NCBI GenBank assembly: GCA_003552075.1
Contig: PUOJ01000035.1
Location: 1-51,483 of the forward strand
From: Bacteroidales bacterium
GTDB taxonomy: Bacteria > Bacteroidota > Bacteroidia > Bacteroidales > UBA7960
Length of the DNA stretch: 51,483 nt
Direction of reading: 5' to 3'
Part shown: positions 39,562 to 50,978 of the stretch, piece after piece
Layout: every line of letters begins with the position of its first letter
Numbering within the stretch: the first letter of the stretch is position 1
Notes under the pieces: model-generated
Databases searched by the model: none
Seen by the model: the letters and a program-made list of their open reading frames with translations, nothing else
Told to the model about the DNA's origin: nothing
Program-made: the position numbers and the translations under genes

Positions 39562-40818
39562 CTAATGGGAAAGAAAGGTTGGTGACATGCGGATCATGAC
39601 AAAGGCCCAGTGAGCCCATTCATCGCTGTCACCTCCCCGGATGTATTCCATGCTTTCGCTGCCGAATAGCATGGAGTATCCCAATACGATCTGGGTAAAT
39701 GGATTAAACCGGTAAACCATGTGTAAGTCGATTTCTGCACCCAGATAGGCATCAATGGCTTCTCCCGTTAGCGGGTTCGGGTAATCGTTTTGCAGGAAAA
39801 ACAGATGCAGGTCGGCTGACACGGTGGTGGTCTCAGACAGGTGGTAGCTGTTTTTTATATAGGGGTTGATTAATCCGGCATTTTGCGTGTCGTCGGGGAA
39901 GTTGATAAAGTAGTTCATGTGTCCTTGCCTAGCATATCCCAGGCCATAAAGGTCACTGAATGCGGTAAAGGTATCGCCGGGATCTGTCTGGTCCATTCCG
40001 GAAAACAGCTCCACTCCCAGGGTGTTTTGCATGTTGTCTGCCAGGCTGGTTGCTGCTTCCAGCATGACGTAAAAGGCACTGATGTCCATGCCACTGGCCG
40101 TTTTTCCATGCTGGTAGGCCGGGTAGGCGCGCAGCTCCAGGTTGCTGGCAGCATCCCATACCTGGTAAGAAGCCCAGGTGTAGCGCATGTTAAAATCGTC
40201 GGGGTCATCAGGGTTTTCGTAGCCATCTGCAATCAGGTGAAATGATGACTGCAGGCCTGGTGTAAGCTGTGTATGATACCAAATGTAATTTAGCGTCTTG
40301 TAGTTATTTAAACCGTAATGGGTTTCAAACAGCCTGTTCTGGCTTTGGCTGAAGCTGGTTCCGAAATGCAGTTTGCTGCCGGTATCCGATGAGTACTGAA
40401 AAGTCAGTGCATCGTGCGCGCGTCCGGTAAGTGCCCAATCGTTGAAGGACAAAAGGCGCTGGGTGTCATACTTCAGCTCTTGTCTGCCCACGATGATATC
40501 CAGGTTGTCGGTAGGATGCAATCCCAACCAGGCTTCATACAAGCTGAAGGTCGGCCTGTTATCCATGGTCAGGTTTTGCCCCCAGAGGCGCGTGTCCTGA
40601 AGGGAGACCCTTGTACTGACGCGATCGTCAAGTACGTAAGATAATGACAAACGTGTGCGCTGGTTGATCTGTGCTGCAGGGCTGCTGTCTTCTGTTGGCA
40701 TCATGCGGAACCCGTCACGGAATTCTGCCCGTGGCCTGATTTGCCCTTCCAGCGTAAACTGGGCATATGCTGTGCCGCTGAGGGCGATCATGAGGATGAA
40801 TGTAGTCAGTTGCTTCAT
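39562..40818 (-). CDS. Outer-membrane beta-barrel porin, alginate-export-like
   Basis: A ~418-residue exported protein: signal peptide MKQLTTFILMIALSGTAYAQ, then beta-hairpins typical of an 18-strand-type barrel. FTLEGQIRPRAEFRDGF, INQRTRLSLSYVLDDRVSTRVSLQDTRLWGQ and the strand VGRQELKYDTQRLLSFNDW match the alginate-export (AlgE-like) porin family common in Bacteroidota, where most members are general or sugar porins rather than alginate exporters. The last residues (FVMIRMSPTFLSH) end two positions beyond an aromatic, slightly unlike the usual C-terminal Phe. The track starts at 40836; ATG 40818 (MKQLTTFIL) gives the better signal peptide. No partner transporter is adjacent. Confidence 0.75.
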   Translation of the reverse strand: MKQLTTFILMIALSGTAYAQFTLEGQIRPRAEFRDGFRMMPTEDSSPAAQINQRTRLSLSYVLDDRVSTRVSLQDTRLWGQNLTMDNRPTFSLYEAWLGLHPTDNLDIIVGRQELKYDTQRLLSFNDWALTGRAHDALTFQYSSDTGSKLHFGTSFSQSQNRLFETHYGLNNYKTLNYIWYHTQLTPGLQSSFHLIADGYENPDDPDDFNMRYTWASYQVWDAASNLELRAYPAYQHGKTASGMDISAFYVMLEAATSLADNMQNTLGVELFSGMDQTDPGDTFTAFSDLYGLGYARQGHMNYFINFPDDTQNAGLINPYIKNSYHLSETTTVSADLHLFFLQNDYPNPLTGEAIDAYLGAEIDLHMVYRFNPFTQIVLGYSMLFGSESMEYIRGGDSDEWAHWAFVMIRMSPTFLSH

Positions 40819-41222
40819 GTGTTTATAGTTTTTCAATTTGTTGGTTATCTGATGTTTGTGTTTTTAGCAGGATTGCTATTGGCTGTTGGCTAATTGGCTT
40901 TTGGTTATTGGCTTTTGGCTATTAGCTATTGGCAAGAAAGCCAAAAGCCTACTTAGTCTGAACGCCCCCGTGAGAATAATCATCCCCCTGTGTGCCAAAA
41001 TACCTGTAATGGCCTATTTAATTTGCTGAGATCGTTAAGCAATAATCTTTATCTTGCGTGTCAATCTCAATGTCATTGCCCGGTTTATTTCAAAAATACA
41101 CATTTAATGCTTTGGCCCGAAGATAAATGCGGTTGGTGCCGCGTATTTGCTTCAGGGGATATGCAGGCATACAGATATCTTTTTTATCTTTGGCCTGTTT
41201 TACATACCCTGCCTGGCACTTT
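40819..41222. repeat. Gene-free region with TTGGCTATTGGC-type word repeats
   Basis: About 400 bases between the porin and the methyltransferase. From 40869 to 40945 the plus strand is a run of TTGGCTGTTGGC, TTGGCTTTTGG and TTGGCTATTAGC words. Read on the other strand these are the AGCCAATAGC/AGCCAACAGC words seen at 14117-14187. The right end carries a possible promoter box (41185-41192). Confidence 0.7.
41185..41192 (+). promoter_or_regulatory. Candidate -7 element (TATCTTTG) for the methyltransferase gene
   Basis: Exact TAnnTTTG, 30 nt before ATG 41223. No good -33 box is seen. Its position makes the track's start at 41127 unlikely. Confidence 0.38.
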
Positions 41223-43127: not shown

Positions 43128-44735
43128 TTACATTCTGTAGACGCCGCTTACGGGTTCACCGTAAGGCTTATTGAGTGAGGTGGCGATAGCCATGGCGATC
43201 ACGTGCCGGGTCTGCATGGGTTCAATCACGCCGTCGTCCCAAAGCCGGGAAGAGCTGTAATAGGCTGAGCCTTCCTTTTCGTACTTGGCCAGGATACTTG
43301 CTTTCATCGCTTCGATTTCTTCTGGGTCGGGTTCTTTGCCAGCGGCTTTGAGTTGATCGGTTTTGACCTGTGCAAGCACATTGGCGGCCTGTTGCCCACC
43401 CATGACGGATATCCTCGATCCCGGCCACATAAAGAGGAAGTGGGGGTCGAAGGCCCTTCCTGCCATCGCGTAGTTCCCGGCGCCATAGGATCCACCGGTG
43501 ATGATGCTTATTTTGGGTACGCTGGCATTGGCTACTGCATGCACGAGCTTTGCCCCGTCGCGGGCAAGTCCGGCGTTCTCATAGGCCTTGCCCACCATGA
43601 AACCGGTGATGTTCTGCAGGAAAATGATCGGAATTTTTCGGAACGTACAAAGTTGGATGAAGTGTGTGCCTTTGAGTGAAGATTCGGCGAACAGGACACC
43701 ATTGTTGGCGATGATGCCTACTGGGTAGCCCATTACATGTGCGAATCCTGTCACCAGCGTGGTGGCATACCTGGCCTTGAATTCGTGGAACCGGCTGCCG
43801 TCGATGAGTCGGGCAATGATCTCATAGGGGTCGGTTTGTTTTTTAGGATCTGTCTGGAGGATGCCTGGCAACTCGTCCGGTGCGTATTGGGGCTCAACAG
43901 GCTTTTGTTTTTCAAGCTTTTGCTGTGGCCCATGTTGCAGGGTTTCAAAGATGCTTCTGCAGATGGACAAGGCGTGTTGGTCGTTTTCAGCAAAATGGTC
44001 TGCCACGCCGGATTTTGTAGTATGGACTTCTGCACCGCCAAGTTCTTCCGGCGTGACTTCTTCGCCGGTGGCTGCCTTGACGAGGGGTGGTCCGCCAATG
44101 AAAATGGTACCCTGATTCTTTACAATGATGGTTTCGTCGCTCATGGCGGGGATGTAGGCTCCACCTGCGGTGCAGGATCCCATTACCAGGGATATTTGCG
44201 GGCAGCCCTGGGCGGATAAGCGGGCCTGGTTAAAAAAGATGCGGCCAAAATCATCGCGGTCGGGGAATACTTCGGCCTGGTTAGGCAGGAATACCCCACC
44301 GGAATCCACCATATAGATGCAGGGCAGGTTATTCTGCATGGCGATCTCCTGCGCCCTGATGTGTTTTCTGATCGTCTCTTTGACGTAGGTGACGCCTTTT
44401 ACAGTGGCATCATTGGCTATGATGATGACTTCCCGGCTGTGGATCACACCAATCCCGGTCACGATTCCGGCACCCGGAAAACTGTCCTCGTACTGGCCAT
44501 AGGCTGCCAATGTTGAAAGTTCAAGGAAGGGGGTTCCCGGATCAATCAGCAAATCGATGCGTTCACGTGCCAGCAGCTTACCCCGGCTACGGTGTTTTTC
44601 CCTTGCGTGTTCGGGTCCGCCCTGCATCACCTGGTGCATCACTTTGCGGTGACGGTCCAGCAGCTCCTGGTAGTGCTTTTCATTTTCCTGAAATTCTTTG
44701 CTGCCGGTTTCTATGTTTGATGAGAGTGTGTACAT
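43128..44735 (-). CDS. mccB: Acyl-CoA carboxylase carboxyltransferase, methylcrotonyl-CoA carboxylase beta type
   Basis: A 535-residue biotin-dependent carboxyltransferase that moves carboxylate from biotin to an acyl-CoA. The N-terminal crotonase half contains [19 protein letters not shown] and [33 protein letters not shown]; the second half contains [64 protein letters not shown]. The [11 protein letters not shown] and [10 protein letters not shown] segments favour the methylcrotonyl-CoA (leucine catabolism) branch over propionyl-CoA carboxylase. The biotin carboxylase/carrier (alpha) gene is not in the window. The gene lies 178 nt after ssnA, behind a repeat array, so it may not share its promoter. 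Confidence 0.85.
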
Positions 44736-44913: not shown

Positions 44914-46194
44914 CTAAAGGCGTCCCATTTTTTTCCATAGTCTTCGGGCATGTTGCTGCGCCTGGTTCAGCACAGCGGGCGCATCGACGGTTTGCACCTC
45001 CCTGTCTTTAACCAGGATGCGGCCTTTACTGATCACGTCACGGACATGGGATGCATCCAGACCGAATATGAAATGGCCTGTGAAGTTTTCTTTGGTAACC
45101 TCGGTAGGGCTGTCATAATCGAGCACCACCAGGTTGTTGTCTCCATCGCCACGGAAATCATTGGACTGCAAATATCGGTGCACATTTCTGAACCGCTGGT
45201 AAGCGCTGTCAAAATGGATGCTGTCGTGCAGTTGTCCCGTAAAAAACGCAGCTTTTGCGCTTCTGATCATGTCGGAATGCATGCCGTCGGTGCCAAGCAT
45301 GATCTGGTCTCCAAGGTCTTTGCCGGAAAAGGCACCCACTTTGTTTTTGAGGTTGCTTTCCATGTTTTGGGCAATCCAGCAGGGTTTTTTGCTGATCATT
45401 TTTCGCTCCCGGGCGTCGAGATGAAGGCCGTGTACCAGGATGGTTTTGGGCGAATCGATTACGCCTGCTTCATTCAGACGTTGGGTGACCTGCTGATAGT
45501 AGGTTTGCAGGCAGTGCTCCTGGTCGTATTTGTCTTCAGCCAGGTGCATGTGAATGCCGGTCTGGTGCCGATTCATAAGATCCACGGCTTTTGCCAGCGT
45601 GTCGGGCTCAACCGTAAAAGATGCATGCAGGCCCACAAGGCCTTGATTTAAGGTAAGATACCTTTCGTTTTCCCTGAGGCCTTGTTCGGCTTTTTTCTTT
45701 CCACCCCGGTCGGTGACTTCATAGCATAAGAGGTGGCTGATTCCCACCTCCTCAAAGGCTTTTGCTATAATGTCCAGTGAACCCGCGATGTGGTTTGGTG
45801 AGGCATGGTGGTCGATTACGAAGGTGGTGCCCGCCCTGGCAGCGGCAATCGCCGTAGCCAGGGCGCTGTAGCGGATGCTTTCCTCATCCAGGTTCTGGTC
45901 CAGGGTCCACCAGATGTACTTCAATATCTCCCTGAAGTCTGCTGGTGGCTCAGGAGGTGGGGGCATGCCCCTGGCAAGGGCCGAATACACGTGATGGTGC
46001 CCCGATGCAAATGATTTGGTCACCAGTTTTCCCGAGCAGTCTATCGTTTCATGCCGGCTTGCTTCCGCGAGCTCTTTGTCATCTTTCAACCAGCGGATGC
46101 CGCCCTTTGGTCCTTCCTCCACGAGAAGGTCACCAGTTCGGAAATCAAGGGTGTCCCATGCAATGAATGTGGTGTTTTTTAGTAAAATGTCCAT
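44914..46194 (-). CDS. ssnA: Aminohydrolase SsnA-like (amidohydrolase superfamily)
   Basis: A 426-residue metal-dependent amidohydrolase. The first metal motif is GHHHVYSALARGMPPP (HxH at residues 66/68), with later ligands in VGLHASFTVE, HMHLAEDKYD and LVHGLHLD and the final aspartate in LGTDGMHSD. The SALARGMPPP segment and the overall length resemble SsnA, a protein that in E. coli and many anaerobes is encoded beside xdhD and purine-breakdown genes. It probably hydrolyses or deaminates a cyclic nitrogen compound; the substrate is unproven. It lies 176 nt downstream of the XdhD-like gene, with a 19-bp palindrome in between. Other cytosine/guanine-deaminase relatives cannot be fully excluded. 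Confidence 0.82.
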   Translation of the reverse strand: MDILLKNTTFIAWDTLDFRTGDLLVEEGPKGGIRWLKDDKELAEASRHETIDCSGKLVTKSFASGHHHVYSALARGMPPPPEPPADFREILKYIWWTLDQNLDEESIRYSALATAIAAARAGTTFVIDHHASPNHIAGSLDIIAKAFEEVGISHLLCYEVTDRGGKKKAEQGLRENERYLTLNQGLVGLHASFTVEPDTLAKAVDLMNRHQTGIHMHLAEDKYDQEHCLQTYYQQVTQRLNEAGVIDSPKTILVHGLHLDARERKMISKKPCWIAQNMESNLKNKVGAFSGKDLGDQIMLGTDGMHSDMIRSAKAAFFTGQLHDSIHFDSAYQRFRNVHRYLQSNDFRGDGDNNLVVLDYDSPTEVTKENFTGHFIFGLDASHVRDVISKGRILVKDREVQTVDAPAVLNQAQQHARRLWKKMGRL

Positions 46195-46272
46195 AGAACA
46201 ATTTTGTTTTCAAGTGTATATGTTTTTTTGAATAATTCCATTCAGTAAAGTGAATGCCCCGTCGTGATTTTT

Positions 46273-46291
46273 GTTTACAAAAAGTGTAAAC
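46273..46291. promoter_or_regulatory. 19-bp palindrome upstream of ssnA
   Basis: GTTTACA (46273-46279) and TGTAAAC (46285-46291) are exact reverse complements with a 5-nt spacer, the shape of a dimeric repressor or activator site. It lies 79 nt before the ssnA ATG. The cognate regulator is not in the window. Confidence 0.5.
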
Positions 46292-46310
46292 CTAATTCAG
46301 GCCGACATAA

Positions 46311-46355
46311 TCCTTCTTTCTTCTTACTTTATACTGCTTACTTCTTACTACCACT
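46311..46355. repeat. CTTACTTCTTACT-type repeat downstream of the XdhD-like gene
   Basis: The plus strand reads TTCTTCTTACTTTATACTGC and then TTACTTCTTACTACCACTAC. Near-identical words occur at 48946-48982, on the other side of the XdhD-like gene. Confidence 0.6.
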
Positions 46356-46370
46356 ACCCCGAGCCAATGA

Positions 46371-48929
46371 TCAACCCCGCTTAACCGGCAGCTCCTTCTT
46401 CATCTCCCCATCATACGCCGCATACGCATTGGCCACGGCGGCGGCCGTAGGAACCATGCCGATCTCCCCGATGCCCTTGGCGCCGTATGGGCCATGGGGA
46501 TCCTTGGCTTCTACACCAATGACTTTCACCGGGGGCATCTCTTTGGCACGGAGAATACCCAGGTCTTTGTATTTAAAACTTAAAGGTACCCCTTTCTGCA
46601 TTTTCAGGTCTTCCTGCAGGGCATACCCCAGGCCCATGTGCACGGAACCCTCAATCTGTCCTTCAAAAAGGGTGGGGTTCATGATCTTTCCGGCATCATG
46701 GGCGGCGATCACCTTGCTGATTTTGCCAGCATCATCAAGAACAGCCACCTGGGCGGCATAACCATATGCAAAATGAATAATTGGGTCTCTGACCTGGTCC
46801 CCCGGTTTACTTGTCCAGTCGCAGACGTATTGGCCATGATATACCTTGCCTGTCAGGTTTTCTGGGATGCTGTTCCTGTTATTTTGGAAAGGCAGCTCTT
46901 TCCGGATCTTGTCTGCCGCATCGAGAATGGCGTTCCCAAGAAGGGCTGTGCCCCTTGAGGACGTGGTCATTCCGGTCGGAACGTCATACCGGGTGTCTGC
47001 CTGCACCTCAATGATTGCCGGATCGATTCCGGTTTCCTGGTGCAGGGTTTGGATGGCCATGGTGTGGATTCCTTGTCCCATTTCGGTCCAACCATGGTGG
47101 ATGATCACTTTTTCCGGGCTGCGAAACTCGATTTTGACACTGCTTTCGTCGGTCATGGCATTGCCCACTCCCGAATTTTTTATTGCACAGGCGATGCCGG
47201 CGTATCTGGCTTTCTGGAAGTCATCTTTTACCGCCAGCAGGCAATCACGCAGGCCCACGCCTTCCAATTTTTGCCCTGTGGCCGTCCTGGCACCATCGTG
47301 CAGGGCATTGTCATATCTTATCTGCCAGCGGTCGAATCCGCCTTTTTTGCAGAGGTCATCGATGCAGGCTTCAATGGCAAAAACTACCTGCGGCACCCCA
47401 AAGCCCCGCATGGCGCCGGTTGGTATGTTGTTGGTATATACGGTATCCGAGGTGATCTCCACGTTGGGAACCACATACGCACCAGTGGCATGTCCTACGA
47501 CCCTTTCCATCACCTTGGTGCCTACGGATGCATATGCCCCGGTGTCGCCTGTTGCGCACATTTTCAGCGCAGTAAGCCTCCCTTGCTGATCGCAGGCCAG
47601 TTTCATGTCCATCTTGACTGCATGGCGTTTGGGATGCATGCGGATGGACTCTTGCCGGGTAAGGTGAACCTTCACGGGTTTATTCAGCAGGTATGCAAAC
47701 AGACTGGCATGTCCCTGGACACTGAGATCCTCTTTCCCGCCAAACCCCCCGCCATTAGACACCTGCGTCACCCTGACATCCTTTTCAGCCAGGTCGAGGA
47801 TGGCGGCCACCTGTTTGCGGTCCACGTAGACTCCCTGGCCCTGGCTGTAAAGGTGCACACCATCTCCTTCGGGCAGCGCTGCCGCACATTCCGTTTCCAT
47901 GAATGCGTGTTCGATGAAAGGGGTGGAGAAGTGGGCTTCGGATACAAAGGCGGCATCATGAAAAGCTTTTTTTGTGTCACCTGAGGCGATCCTGGCCGAT
48001 TCCAGGAGGTTGGACTTGCCCGGATGAACTTCCGGGGCATCGGGTTGAAGGGCTTCCTCGGGAGCACAAACCGGCTCCAGCACTTCGTATTCCACTTGAA
48101 TTGCCGCGGCAGCCTTCCTGGCCAGCTCCTCCGATTCGGCTACCACTCCCGCAATCACATCGCTGATGCAGCGTGTGGTTTCTCCTGTCTTGATCATCAG
48201 GGGCCAGTCGTCGAATATCAGGCCGTTATACCGCCTGCCCGGGATGTCGTCGGCGGTAAAAACGCGGATCACGCCTTCCATGTTGGCTGCATCGCGGGTA
48301 TCGACGGACAGTACCCTGGTTTTTGGGTGGTCGCTGAAACGAAGGGCCCCGAAGGCCATCCCATCGAAAAAGAGGTCATCCACGAAGGGACGATCGCCCA
48401 GGGCTGTTTCCACTGCCTGGTATTTCGGCCAGCGTTGGCCCACGGCGGCATTATTTACATCCATGGCCTTCTCCTCCTGCTCATCCAGTGCCCGCTCAAT
48501 GGCCTCAAGGATTTTGATATAGCCGGTGCAACGGCAAATGTTCGGGTTGATGGCCTTTACGATTTCCTCCCTGGAGGGGCGCTGCTTTTGCTCAAAGAGC
48601 TTTTTGCTTCGCATGATGAAGCCCGGTGTGCAGAAACCGCACTGCACGGCACCGTGCCGGGCAAACATATGTCCGATCATGGCCCGGAAATCTTCAGGCA
48701 GGCCTTCGGTGGTCAAGATAGTGGCTCCATCCAGGCTTTTAAACCGGGTGCGGCATGCAAGTTTTGGCTTCCCGTCCACTTCAATGGTACAGGCACCGCA
48801 GCTGCCCTCGCCGGAACAACCGTCCTTGGGCGAAGTGATGCGTAGCTCATTCCGCAACCAGGGGAGGAGCATCGCTTCCGCATTGCCATCGTACTGATGT
48901 TTCTTGCCGTTGATGGTGAAGGTTATCAT
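46371..48929 (-). CDS. xdhD: Fused 2Fe-2S / molybdopterin hydroxylase, XdhD-like (xanthine dehydrogenase family)
   Basis: An 852-residue fusion of two subunits of the xanthine dehydrogenase family. Residues 1-~150 are the two [2Fe-2S] domains: cysteines 38/44/47/59 (DGCSGEGSCGAC... LACR) and 97/100/132/134 (QCGFCTPG, ICRCTGY). The molybdopterin subunit follows: a/b hammerhead ~170-290, then GGGFGGKEDLS, GAMRGFGVPQVVFAIE, HHGWTEMGQGIHTM and the catalytic glutamate in GAKGIGEIGMVPTAAA. This fused layout without an FAD subunit is that of E. coli XdhD. It should hydroxylate a purine or similar heterocycle. It is 25 nt after a PLP enzyme and precedes ssnA, one operon. Confidence 0.88.
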   Translation of the reverse strand: MITFTINGKKHQYDGNAEAMLLPWLRNELRITSPKDGCSGEGSCGACTIEVDGKPKLACRTRFKSLDGATILTTEGLPEDFRAMIGHMFARHGAVQCGFCTPGFIMRSKKLFEQKQRPSREEIVKAINPNICRCTGYIKILEAIERALDEQEEKAMDVNNAAVGQRWPKYQAVETALGDRPFVDDLFFDGMAFGALRFSDHPKTRVLSVDTRDAANMEGVIRVFTADDIPGRRYNGLIFDDWPLMIKTGETTRCISDVIAGVVAESEELARKAAAAIQVEYEVLEPVCAPEEALQPDAPEVHPGKSNLLESARIASGDTKKAFHDAAFVSEAHFSTPFIEHAFMETECAAALPEGDGVHLYSQGQGVYVDRKQVAAILDLAEKDVRVTQVSNGGGFGGKEDLSVQGHASLFAYLLNKPVKVHLTRQESIRMHPKRHAVKMDMKLACDQQGRLTALKMCATGDTGAYASVGTKVMERVVGHATGAYVVPNVEITSDTVYTNNIPTGAMRGFGVPQVVFAIEACIDDLCKKGGFDRWQIRYDNALHDGARTATGQKLEGVGLRDCLLAVKDDFQKARYAGIACAIKNSGVGNAMTDESSVKIEFRSPEKVIIHHGWTEMGQGIHTMAIQTLHQETGIDPAIIEVQADTRYDVPTGMTTSSRGTALLGNAILDAADKIRKELPFQNNRNSIPENLTGKVYHGQYVCDWTSKPGDQVRDPIIHFAYGYAAQVAVLDDAGKISKVIAAHDAGKIMNPTLFEGQIEGSVHMGLGYALQEDLKMQKGVPLSFKYKDLGILRAKEMPPVKVIGVEAKDPHGPYGAKGIGEIGMVPTAAAVANAYAAYDGEMKKELPVKRG

Positions 48930-48945
48930 GGATTAGGTTTGAGGT

Positions 48946-48982
48946 TCTTACTACTTACTTCCTACTTCTTACTCTCTCTCCC
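48946..48982. repeat. CTTACTACTTACTTCCTACTTC-type repeat overlapping the PLP enzyme stop
   Basis: The short-word repeat begins between the two genes and runs into the last codons of the PLP enzyme, so its final residues (VRSRK) and stop codon are encoded by repeat sequence. The words match those at 46311-46355. Confidence 0.6.
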
Positions 48983-50205
48983 ACTGCCTCCAACGTCGGT
49001 ACCACAGCCTCCGGCACTTCCAACGCCCCCTTGATGGCTTTCAGGTCTTTCAGTCCGCTGCCGGTAGACATCACCACATTGTTGGAACCGGTGGGGAGTT
49101 TGTCATCCCTTTCATATCTGAGTAATCCTGCATAGGCAGCTGCTGCTGCGGGTTCTGCAAAGATGCCCGTATTGCGCGCCATCACGGAAGCTGCCTGCAT
49201 GATCTCATCATCGCTTACACTGAGCCATTCTCCGCCATAGGTCTTCAGAAACTTTTTGGCCATGTTGAAATTGCGGGGTACATCCACGGAGATGGAGTCG
49301 GCCAGTGTACTACTTGCTTTGGCCTCGAAAGTATCTGAATCCATGTTTCGCACCAGGTTATCGCTTTTTTCCGCCTGAACGGCTACAATGACCGGTACCT
49401 TTTCCATGAAGCCGAGTTTTACCAGGTCTTCAAATCCTTTATAGATACCGGAAATGATCACACCATCGCCCACGGAAACAAATATTCTGTCCATCTCTTT
49501 GCCCTGCATCTGGTCAAAAAGCTCAAAAGCGGCGGTTTTTTTCCCTTCAATGGTCAGCGGGTTGTATCCGGTATTCCTGTTAAACCAGCCATGTGTATCG
49601 GACAGGGCTATGCTGAGGTCAAAGGCCTGGTCGTATGTGCCTCTTACCGGCAGTATTTGCGCACCGTACATCATGATCTGGCTCACTTTGGCCTCGGGTG
49701 CTGTATGAGGCACCAGCACCACTGCTTTTTGCCCTTGCGATGCGCAAATCCCGGCAATGGATGATCCGGCATTGCCCGTGGAAGCAGCCACGATCGTATC
49801 GATCCCATTTTCTTTGGCATAGGCCGATACGAGGGCAGATGCCCTGTCTTTGTAAGAGAAAGTGGGGTTTTGGCTGTCGTCCTTTATGAAAAGATGGTAA
49901 GGCAAGGTTTTGCCGTTCATAATCTTGAATGGATACAAAGGGGTATTGCCAATACGCAGCGGGGGATAACTCTCAGCGGTTTTTACCGGGAGTATATCGG
50001 TGTAAGCATTTGTCTTTAGGGATTTGAAAACCCTGACATTCCGGGTAATGGCATCATAATCATAAAGCGTTTTCAATGCGCCGGGTGGTGGTTTCCCTTC
50101 AACCTGTTTGTCGCCGCAGGTCTTGCAGAGATATATAACTCCTTTGTCTACGGCATGTTGTTTCCCGCAGTCCACACATTCAAATAGAAAATGATCTGCC
50201 ATCAT
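48955..50205 (-). CDS. Zinc-ribbon threonine-synthase-like PLP enzyme
   Basis: A 416-residue fold-type II PLP enzyme. An N-terminal zinc ribbon has two CxxC knuckles (ECVDCGK at residues 10-13 and LCKTCGD at 27-30). The internal aldimine lysine is in NPTFSYKDRASALV (about residue 119), the phosphate-binding loop is STGNAGSSIAG, and the final serine/glycine loop is VVMSTGSGLKDL. This is the threonine synthase arrangement, but no other threonine-pathway gene is near, while an XdhD-like and an SsnA-like gene follow. In the related enteric cluster another fold-type II enzyme, diaminopropionate ammonia-lyase, occupies a comparable place, so a lyase on a purine-derived amino acid is possible (inference). 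A genuine threonine synthase is the alternative. Confidence 0.82.
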   Translation of the reverse strand: MMADHFLFECVDCGKQHAVDKGVIYLCKTCGDKQVEGKPPPGALKTLYDYDAITRNVRVFKSLKTNAYTDILPVKTAESYPPLRIGNTPLYPFKIMNGKTLPYHLFIKDDSQNPTFSYKDRASALVSAYAKENGIDTIVAASTGNAGSSIAGICASQGQKAVVLVPHTAPEAKVSQIMMYGAQILPVRGTYDQAFDLSIALSDTHGWFNRNTGYNPLTIEGKKTAAFELFDQMQGKEMDRIFVSVGDGVIISGIYKGFEDLVKLGFMEKVPVIVAVQAEKSDNLVRNMDSDTFEAKASSTLADSISVDVPRNFNMAKKFLKTYGGEWLSVSDDEIMQAASVMARNTGIFAEPAAAAAYAGLLRYERDDKLPTGSNNVVMSTGSGLKDLKAIKGALEVPEAVVPTLEAVGERVRSRK

Positions 50206-50978
50206 AAAGTATCAGCTTGCCTTCGGTTAAACTGCCAATTTATTAAAATTTACTGAATTACTTTACTTGTAAGCAAGATATTTCCTATGTCAATTTTATA
50301 AGGTTCACAAAATCAAACCAAAAAACTTGATGATTGAATGCGTTATTCCTTCTAATTATTCATCAAGCTAAAGAAGCGGGTGCTTTTAAAGCCCATCCCG
50401 ATCATGTTCGCATTAGATAATCATTCCCTCTGCGACAAGCCCTCGCGGTGAGAATACATATGCTTTTTTTATGAACAATAATCCCATACAATGTAAAATT
50501 TACAGAAGTTATTCAAAAAACATAAAGTCTTGACAAATAAATATATACATGACAATATATCTTTTTCGTTGTAATTCAGCATTTTAACGTATCAAGCTAC
50601 CTTCATCAATGTATTTAACTGCAAAAAACAGTTAAAAAACATTTCCTGTGATTTGTTTTATAAAAAAATATTTGCGTAATTCGCTATTGCAAAACAGAAA
50701 GCTATATGTTATTTTTCTTTTACCAAGTAGCAAAAGTATGGCGAAACTGCACTTGCTATGACATTTTTGCATAGGTAAAAATTTGTTTTTCCAATCATGT
50801 GCAAACATGCAAATGAAACGGATAAGAAAATATCTTTTTATTAAATAAGATTAGATGAGTTGAAGACAAAAATGATCGATAAAAACTGAAGTAGCCATGA
50901 ATATTCAGGAATAAGTTTTTTATTTAATACATGGAGGTCCGTTTGCTTTGTTTCATTTATAATTAATATCAATATGCG
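50206..50978. other. Long A+T-rich gene-free region
   Basis: About 770 bases with no open frame that I can support, much richer in A+T than the flanking genes (notably 50490-50960). It holds the probable promoter of the PLP-enzyme operon at its left end. No TAnnTTTG box is clear for the beta-helix gene at its right end. No tRNA, IS end or direct repeat was recognised. Confidence 0.6.
50245..50276 (-). promoter_or_regulatory. Candidate promoter of the PLP enzyme-XdhD-SsnA operon
   Basis: Minus strand: TTG (50274-50276), 21-nt spacer, TAAATTTT (50245-50252), seven of eight matches to the -7 consensus, 39 nt before the ATG. Tentative in such A+T-rich sequence. Confidence 0.32.

Follow-up and report, generated by a model that had tools for sequence, protein, structure and literature searches.

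The PLP1-XdhD-SsnA block and its surroundings

The window, by which we mean the whole stretch of 51,483 nucleotides analyzed here, is one contig (C102) of a Bacteroidales assembly of 2.39 Mb in 198 contigs that is 86.5% complete (genome G000; below, G-labels denote genomes and L-labels loci). Three open reading frames lie on its minus strand in the order PLP1 (48955-50205, 416 aa), XdhD (46371-48929, 852 aa) and SsnA (44914-46194, 426 aa), with intergenic gaps of 25 and 176 nt, as described in an earlier note on this DNA. Domain searches class PLP1 as a threonine-synthase-like PALP protein, a PLP enzyme of fold type II, in agreement with that note. Its N-terminal zinc ribbon has four cysteines (C10, C13, C27 and C30) that do not vary among 22 homologues; the presumed PLP lysine is K119.

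The second protein, a putative urate reductase, has the fused 2Fe-2S/molybdopterin architecture without an FAD domain that had been noticed before. Its designation as XdhD holds at the level of the TIGR03311 family (884.5 bits against a cut-off of 830) but not at that of close similarity, as it is only ~25% identical to E. coli XdhD and equally far from XdhA. A similar value, 25.6%, has been reported for C. difficile XdhD against E. coli XdhD (PMC12507026). Mapping of Glu606 of the E. coli protein onto the window protein is uninformative because this residue falls within an inserted stretch of the former. The third protein, a candidate dihydroyanthine ring-opening amidohydrolase, has SsnA as its best family and retains the metal-site residues H66, H68, H215, H217, H255 and D303 in common with E. 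coli SsnA, but its scores stay under the cut-offs (330 of 455 bits for TIGR03314 and 369 of 444 bits for NF005540).

A fourth co-oriented gene on the minus strand (43128-44735), a beta-like acyl-CoA carboxylase carboxyltransferase ORF, is also syntenic in relatives and is probably a neighbor with a function separate from that of the block. Elsewhere in the genus the carboxylase run continues 3' of SsnA with genes for enoyl-CoA hydratase, biotin carboxylase and acyl-CoA dehydrogenase (L046 13666-19340), an arrangement that resembles a leucine-degradation operon and of which the window keeps the first gene only. Upstream of PLP1 on the same strand is an AT-rich region (50206-50978), which we compared with the closest relative (G005). 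Similarity between the two stops at 50259, 54 nt upstream of PLP1, and beyond this breakpoint the relative has genes for an alpha/beta hydrolase, a second PLP enzyme (PLP3) and YgfK instead. A repeat of ~190 bp with 78% identity is found beside a methyltransferase gene in the window (40814-41011) and, in the closest relative, between XdhD and SsnA (L077 12596-12778); it resembles a small mobile or repetitive element.

Urate pathway genes in the genome and its relatives

Work on E. coli and Clostridia published in 2025 established the reductive urate pathway (Li et al. 2025; PMC12507026). XdhD takes urate to yanthine, YgfK and SsnA then give ureidomethylhydantoin, HyuA produces 2,3-diureidopropionate, YgeW or UacY albizziin, YgeY 2,3-diaminopropionate, and YgeX finally pyruvate. 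The molybdenum enzyme of this pathway reduces (dehydroxylates) urate and several steps separate SsnA from any amino acid (PMC12507026); the earlier note had envisaged the hydroxylation of a heterocycle instead. Bacteroidota are not among the phyla named for the pathway in the defining paper, from which the word stem "Bacteroid" is absent (PMC12507026).

Outside the window, the same genome has a second locus (contig C63) with genes for YgeY and YgeW, and both proteins exceed their equivalog cut-offs (493.9 bits for TIGR03526 and 587.9 bits for TIGR03316). They are accompanied by an XdhC-family protein and an amidase, an arrangement that recurs in six further genomes examined from the genus (L256, L262-L266). 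The amidase-family protein, encoded after YgeW (L255 11816-13489 in the C63 locus) also in these six, might have a ureido or carbamoyl product as its substrate. A search of the 86.5%-complete assembly for the remaining genes found neither YgfK, PLP3 nor a classical XDH or second XDH-type molybdenum subunit, and no HyuA match over the cut-off, which is exceeded in 27 of 38 genomes searched; the best YgeX match reached 57.5 bits against a TIGR01747 cut-off of 274. One YgfK-like match (38% identity over part of YgfK) was rejected because its alignment is confined to residues 465-925, a region of YgfK that is similar to glutamate-synthase small subunits. Since the assembly lacks ~13% of the genome, true loss of YgfK, PLP3 and HyuA is indistinguishable from an assembly gap.

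The closest relative, whose XdhD is 92% identical, has the full gene set distributed over three contigs, and those loci of the same genus whose contigs are long enough (for example L046, L051, L052 and L077) contain genes for XDH, a MocA-like protein, YgfK (898 bits for TIGR03315), PLP3, PLP1, XdhD and SsnA, with the alpha/beta hydrolase on the opposite strand between PLP3 and PLP1. HyuA is encoded near the PLP1-XdhD-SsnA cluster or elsewhere in these genomes. A split is also seen in G017, where YgfK-PLP3 and PLP1-XdhD-SsnA lie on separate contigs, whereas the 99% complete genome G070 has a continuous PLP3-PLP1-XdhD-SsnA-HyuA run with YgeW and YgeY beside it on the other strand (64 and 53% identical to the E. 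coli proteins, respectively) and no YgeX over the cut-off. Across the phylum, the loci examined hold combinations of HyuA, SsnA, YgeY, YgeW, XDH and YgfK or a PreA-like protein.

PLP1 lies directly upstream of XdhD on the same strand in 24 analyzed loci (two pairs of which are the same contig twice) from many genera, the two genes being spaced by -41 to 229 nt. With the mechanical ORF starts used here, several pairs overlap by 1 to 41 nt, 4-nt overlaps among them. This recurrence is more than chance, and the three genes of the block co-occur in relatives. The connection to the anaerobic purine/urate cluster made in the earlier note is upheld. Its idea of a compact pathway of three activities is not supported, given YgeY and YgeW at the second locus and YgfK, PLP3, XDH and HyuA in relatives that have the block. 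The reduced look of the block is best read as the result of a split locus in an incomplete assembly.

Compared with the E. coli and C. difficile cluster (XdhD, YgfK or UacX, SsnA, HyuA, YgeW or UacY, YgeY and YgeX; PMC12507026), the genome shares XdhD-like, SsnA-like, YgeY and YgeW proteins; close relatives add YgfK and HyuA, and in distant ones UacX-like (PreA-like) proteins replace YgfK. Unlike that cluster, Bacteroidota mostly lack YgeX and have PLP1 and PLP3 instead, with the genes spread over several loci. The selenium-dependent molybdenum hydroxylase set (PMC2276186) likewise has a TIGR03311-family XdhD, SsnA and an XdhC-family factor in common with this genome, although the XdhC-family protein found here is under the cut-offs for NF045664 and TIGR02964 and YqeB (TIGR03309) is not among the matches listed.

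PLP1 and PLP3 compared with threonine synthases and YgeX

A phylogeny of 103 fold-type II proteins puts PLP1, PLP3, YgeX and the four class I threonine synthases (B. subtilis, Thermus, Aquifex and M. tuberculosis) in one group each. PLP1 adjoins the class I threonine synthases and PLP3, a protein of 493 aa that is nearest to cysteine synthases (CysK-like), adjoins CysK/CysM, both on long branches. PLP1 and YgeX fall into separate clades (SH-aLRT 98 and 100), confirming that this PLP enzyme, like YgeX (2,3-diaminopropionate ammonia-lyase) a fold-type II member of the urate cluster, is not of the YgeX subfamily. The AlphaFold model of PLP1 (pLDDT 83) finds its best matches among class I threonine synthases, which reflects the general fold only, and Alistipes CapA2 (9k3c, 19% identity) is also among its fold relatives; the model of PLP3 (mean pLDDT 38) was set aside.

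With class I threonine synthases, PLP1 shares the fold, the PLP lysine motif and the sister position in the tree. It differs from them by the additional N-terminal zinc ribbon (the class I alignments begin near residue 66 of the window protein), by its gene context and at residues that we take to have catalytic roles. The arginine of the NPxR motif, presumably the one that handles the substrate phosphate, is a threonine in PLP1 and its homologues in the order (NPLT compared with NP[YHV]R in the four class I enzymes), and the GNAGN loop of class I is GDGVI. The positions of Asp120 and Asp189 of YgeX, which we likewise assume to be catalytic, are threonines in PLP1. PLP1 passes one threonine synthase model (184 bits for TIGR00260, cut-off 167) and stays under the cut-off in five others. 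It is not the sole protein of this kind in the genome, as a second threonine synthase (ThrC, contig C84) outscores it with 258 bits and adjoins a proposed homoserine kinase (TIGR02535).

Two PLP1 sequences stand apart. A copy in G046 (L023 3090-4358) has a threonine at the PLP lysine (FSITDR compared with FS[YF]KDR elsewhere); this genome also has YgeX and shows 9% contamination. A contig titled Methanomassiliicoccaceae archaeon encodes a PLP1 82% identical to the window protein (L035 6593-7852) and may be a misbinned piece of a Bacteroidales genome.

To describe how PLP1, PLP3 and YgeX are distributed, we counted them in relatives at several distances. Among 49 genomes of the order, which were chosen partly for hits, 26 have both PLP1 and PLP3, 4 have PLP1 only, 2 have PLP3 only and 17 have neither (Fisher p = 1.2e-7, a test that, like all our 2x2 tests, treats related genomes as independent). 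Across the phylum, PLP1 scoring at least 344 bits was present in 30 of the 31 genomes with a clear PLP3, in 17 of them on the same contig within ~25 kb, whereas none of 7 control genomes without PLP3 had PLP1 or any match above 90 bits.

YgeX was over the cut-off in 8 of 98 relatives, and among XdhD-positive genomes it was found in 1 of 29 with PLP1 compared with 3 of 7 without (Fisher p = 0.018, relatedness ignored). In G033 and G024 YgeX occupies the slot from YgfK to XdhD that holds PLP3-PLP1 in others, and in L171 PLP3 is flanked by YgeW and YgeY, as ygeX is in E. coli. The exclusion has exceptions: 7 of the 31 distant PLP3 genomes have YgeX elsewhere in the genome, all 7 with PLP1, and PLP3 adjoins YgeX in G072. 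Two genomes from the genus of the window, G014 and G019 (L199, L200), have YgeX without PLP3 or a clear PLP1 match, followed by a conserved protein of 288 aa; this pair is possibly another diaminopropionate route.

A probable split urate pathway and its proposed terminal step

Taken together, the family assignments, the synteny in relatives and the YgeY and YgeW over cut-off in the same genome lead us to assign the block to the reductive urate pathway, as one piece of a route whose genes would occupy two or more separate loci here. We read the Bacteroidota system as a variant of the known pathway with its genes dispersed in this genome. By homology, XdhD would convert urate to yanthine (2,8-dioxopurine); YgfK, present in relatives and absent from this assembly, would reduce yanthine to dihydroyanthine; and SsnA would open the ring to ureidomethylhydantoin. 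A hydantoinase followed by the YgeW and YgeY of the second locus would then release 2,3-diaminopropionate. PLP1, normally together with PLP3, may take the place of YgeX and consume diaminopropionate (or albizziin); the likeliest reaction would be an alpha,beta-elimination that yields pyruvate and ammonia. Gene position and the absence of YgeX suggest this substrate and reaction. The replacement is proposed on the co-occurrence of PLP1 with PLP3, the rarity of YgeX with PLP1 and the shared cluster positions in G033, G024 and L171.

We consider this reading as a whole, a split urate pathway in which PLP1 normally acts with PLP3 in place of YgeX on 2,3-diaminopropionate, to be the probable one, held with moderate confidence. 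Several observations count against it: PLP1 lacks equivalents of Asp120 and Asp189 of YgeX, some genomes have YgeX alongside PLP1 or PLP3, the assembly yielded no YgfK, PLP3, classical XDH or HyuA over the cut-off, SsnA is under its cut-offs, and XdhD is no closer to E. coli XdhD than to XdhA.

The alternative that fares best, though we think it unlikely, is that the two PLP enzymes have some other intermediate of the urate pathway as their substrate. One of them might eliminate urea or carbamate from albizziin (3-ureidoalanine), for example, or PLP3 might be a racemase feeding an enantiomer-specific PLP1. PLP3 adjoins YgeY, YgeW or HyuA in many clusters, and its position beside YgeX in G072 implies that it need not do the job of YgeX. 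A racemase could be needed by a stereospecific substitute, since the D- and the L-isomer are both substrates of E. coli YgeX (PMC12507026). On the other hand, YgeY is present in most PLP1 genomes, so that a bypass of YgeY is unneeded, and neither the residues nor the low-confidence PLP3 model separate the candidate reactions.

That the two enzymes would spend diaminopropionate on biosynthesis, through beta-replacement to cysteine, cysteate or a similar product, and not on catabolism to pyruvate, seems improbable. The kinship of PLP3 with cysteine synthases, which are beta-replacement enzymes, and the presence of CapA2 among the fold relatives of PLP1 would fit such a role, but both proteins are found within catabolic clusters, and no sulfur or sulfonolipid genes were recognized among the annotated cluster neighbors, many neighbors being without annotation. 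Still harder to credit is the version of the earlier note, a minimal three-enzyme pathway for another heterocycle: this assembly does have three adjacent pathway genes and lacks recognizable YgfK, PLP3 and HyuA, but it is incomplete, YgeW and YgeY are encoded in the same genome, and the closest relative carries the full set. An ordinary threonine synthase traveling with purine genes is the least credible of all and was rejected as the main reading of PLP1, for despite the passed TIGR00260 model and the class I enzymes as nearest folds and tree sisters, there is a better-scoring ThrC in a fitting context, five other models fail, the motif is NPLT and the adjacency to XdhD extends across many genera.

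Returning to the split urate pathway with PLP1 and PLP3 at its end, its terminal step in Bacteroidota is probably new. As a more tentative proposal, a dedicated PLP pair, drawn from threonine-synthase and cysteine-synthase stock, might jointly end the pathway by chemistry unlike that of YgeX, such as racemization plus elimination or urea elimination from albizziin. A recent commentary asks whether the reductive urate pathway is ancient or a recent adaptation to the gut (PMC12990295); full gene sets across Bacteroidota, including metagenome-assembled genomes titled from sediments, lakes and groundwater, favor an older and wider origin. The PLP1 and PLP3 families would define a new end of the pathway and gain a testable function, and annotations that name PLP1 a threonine synthase would need correction.
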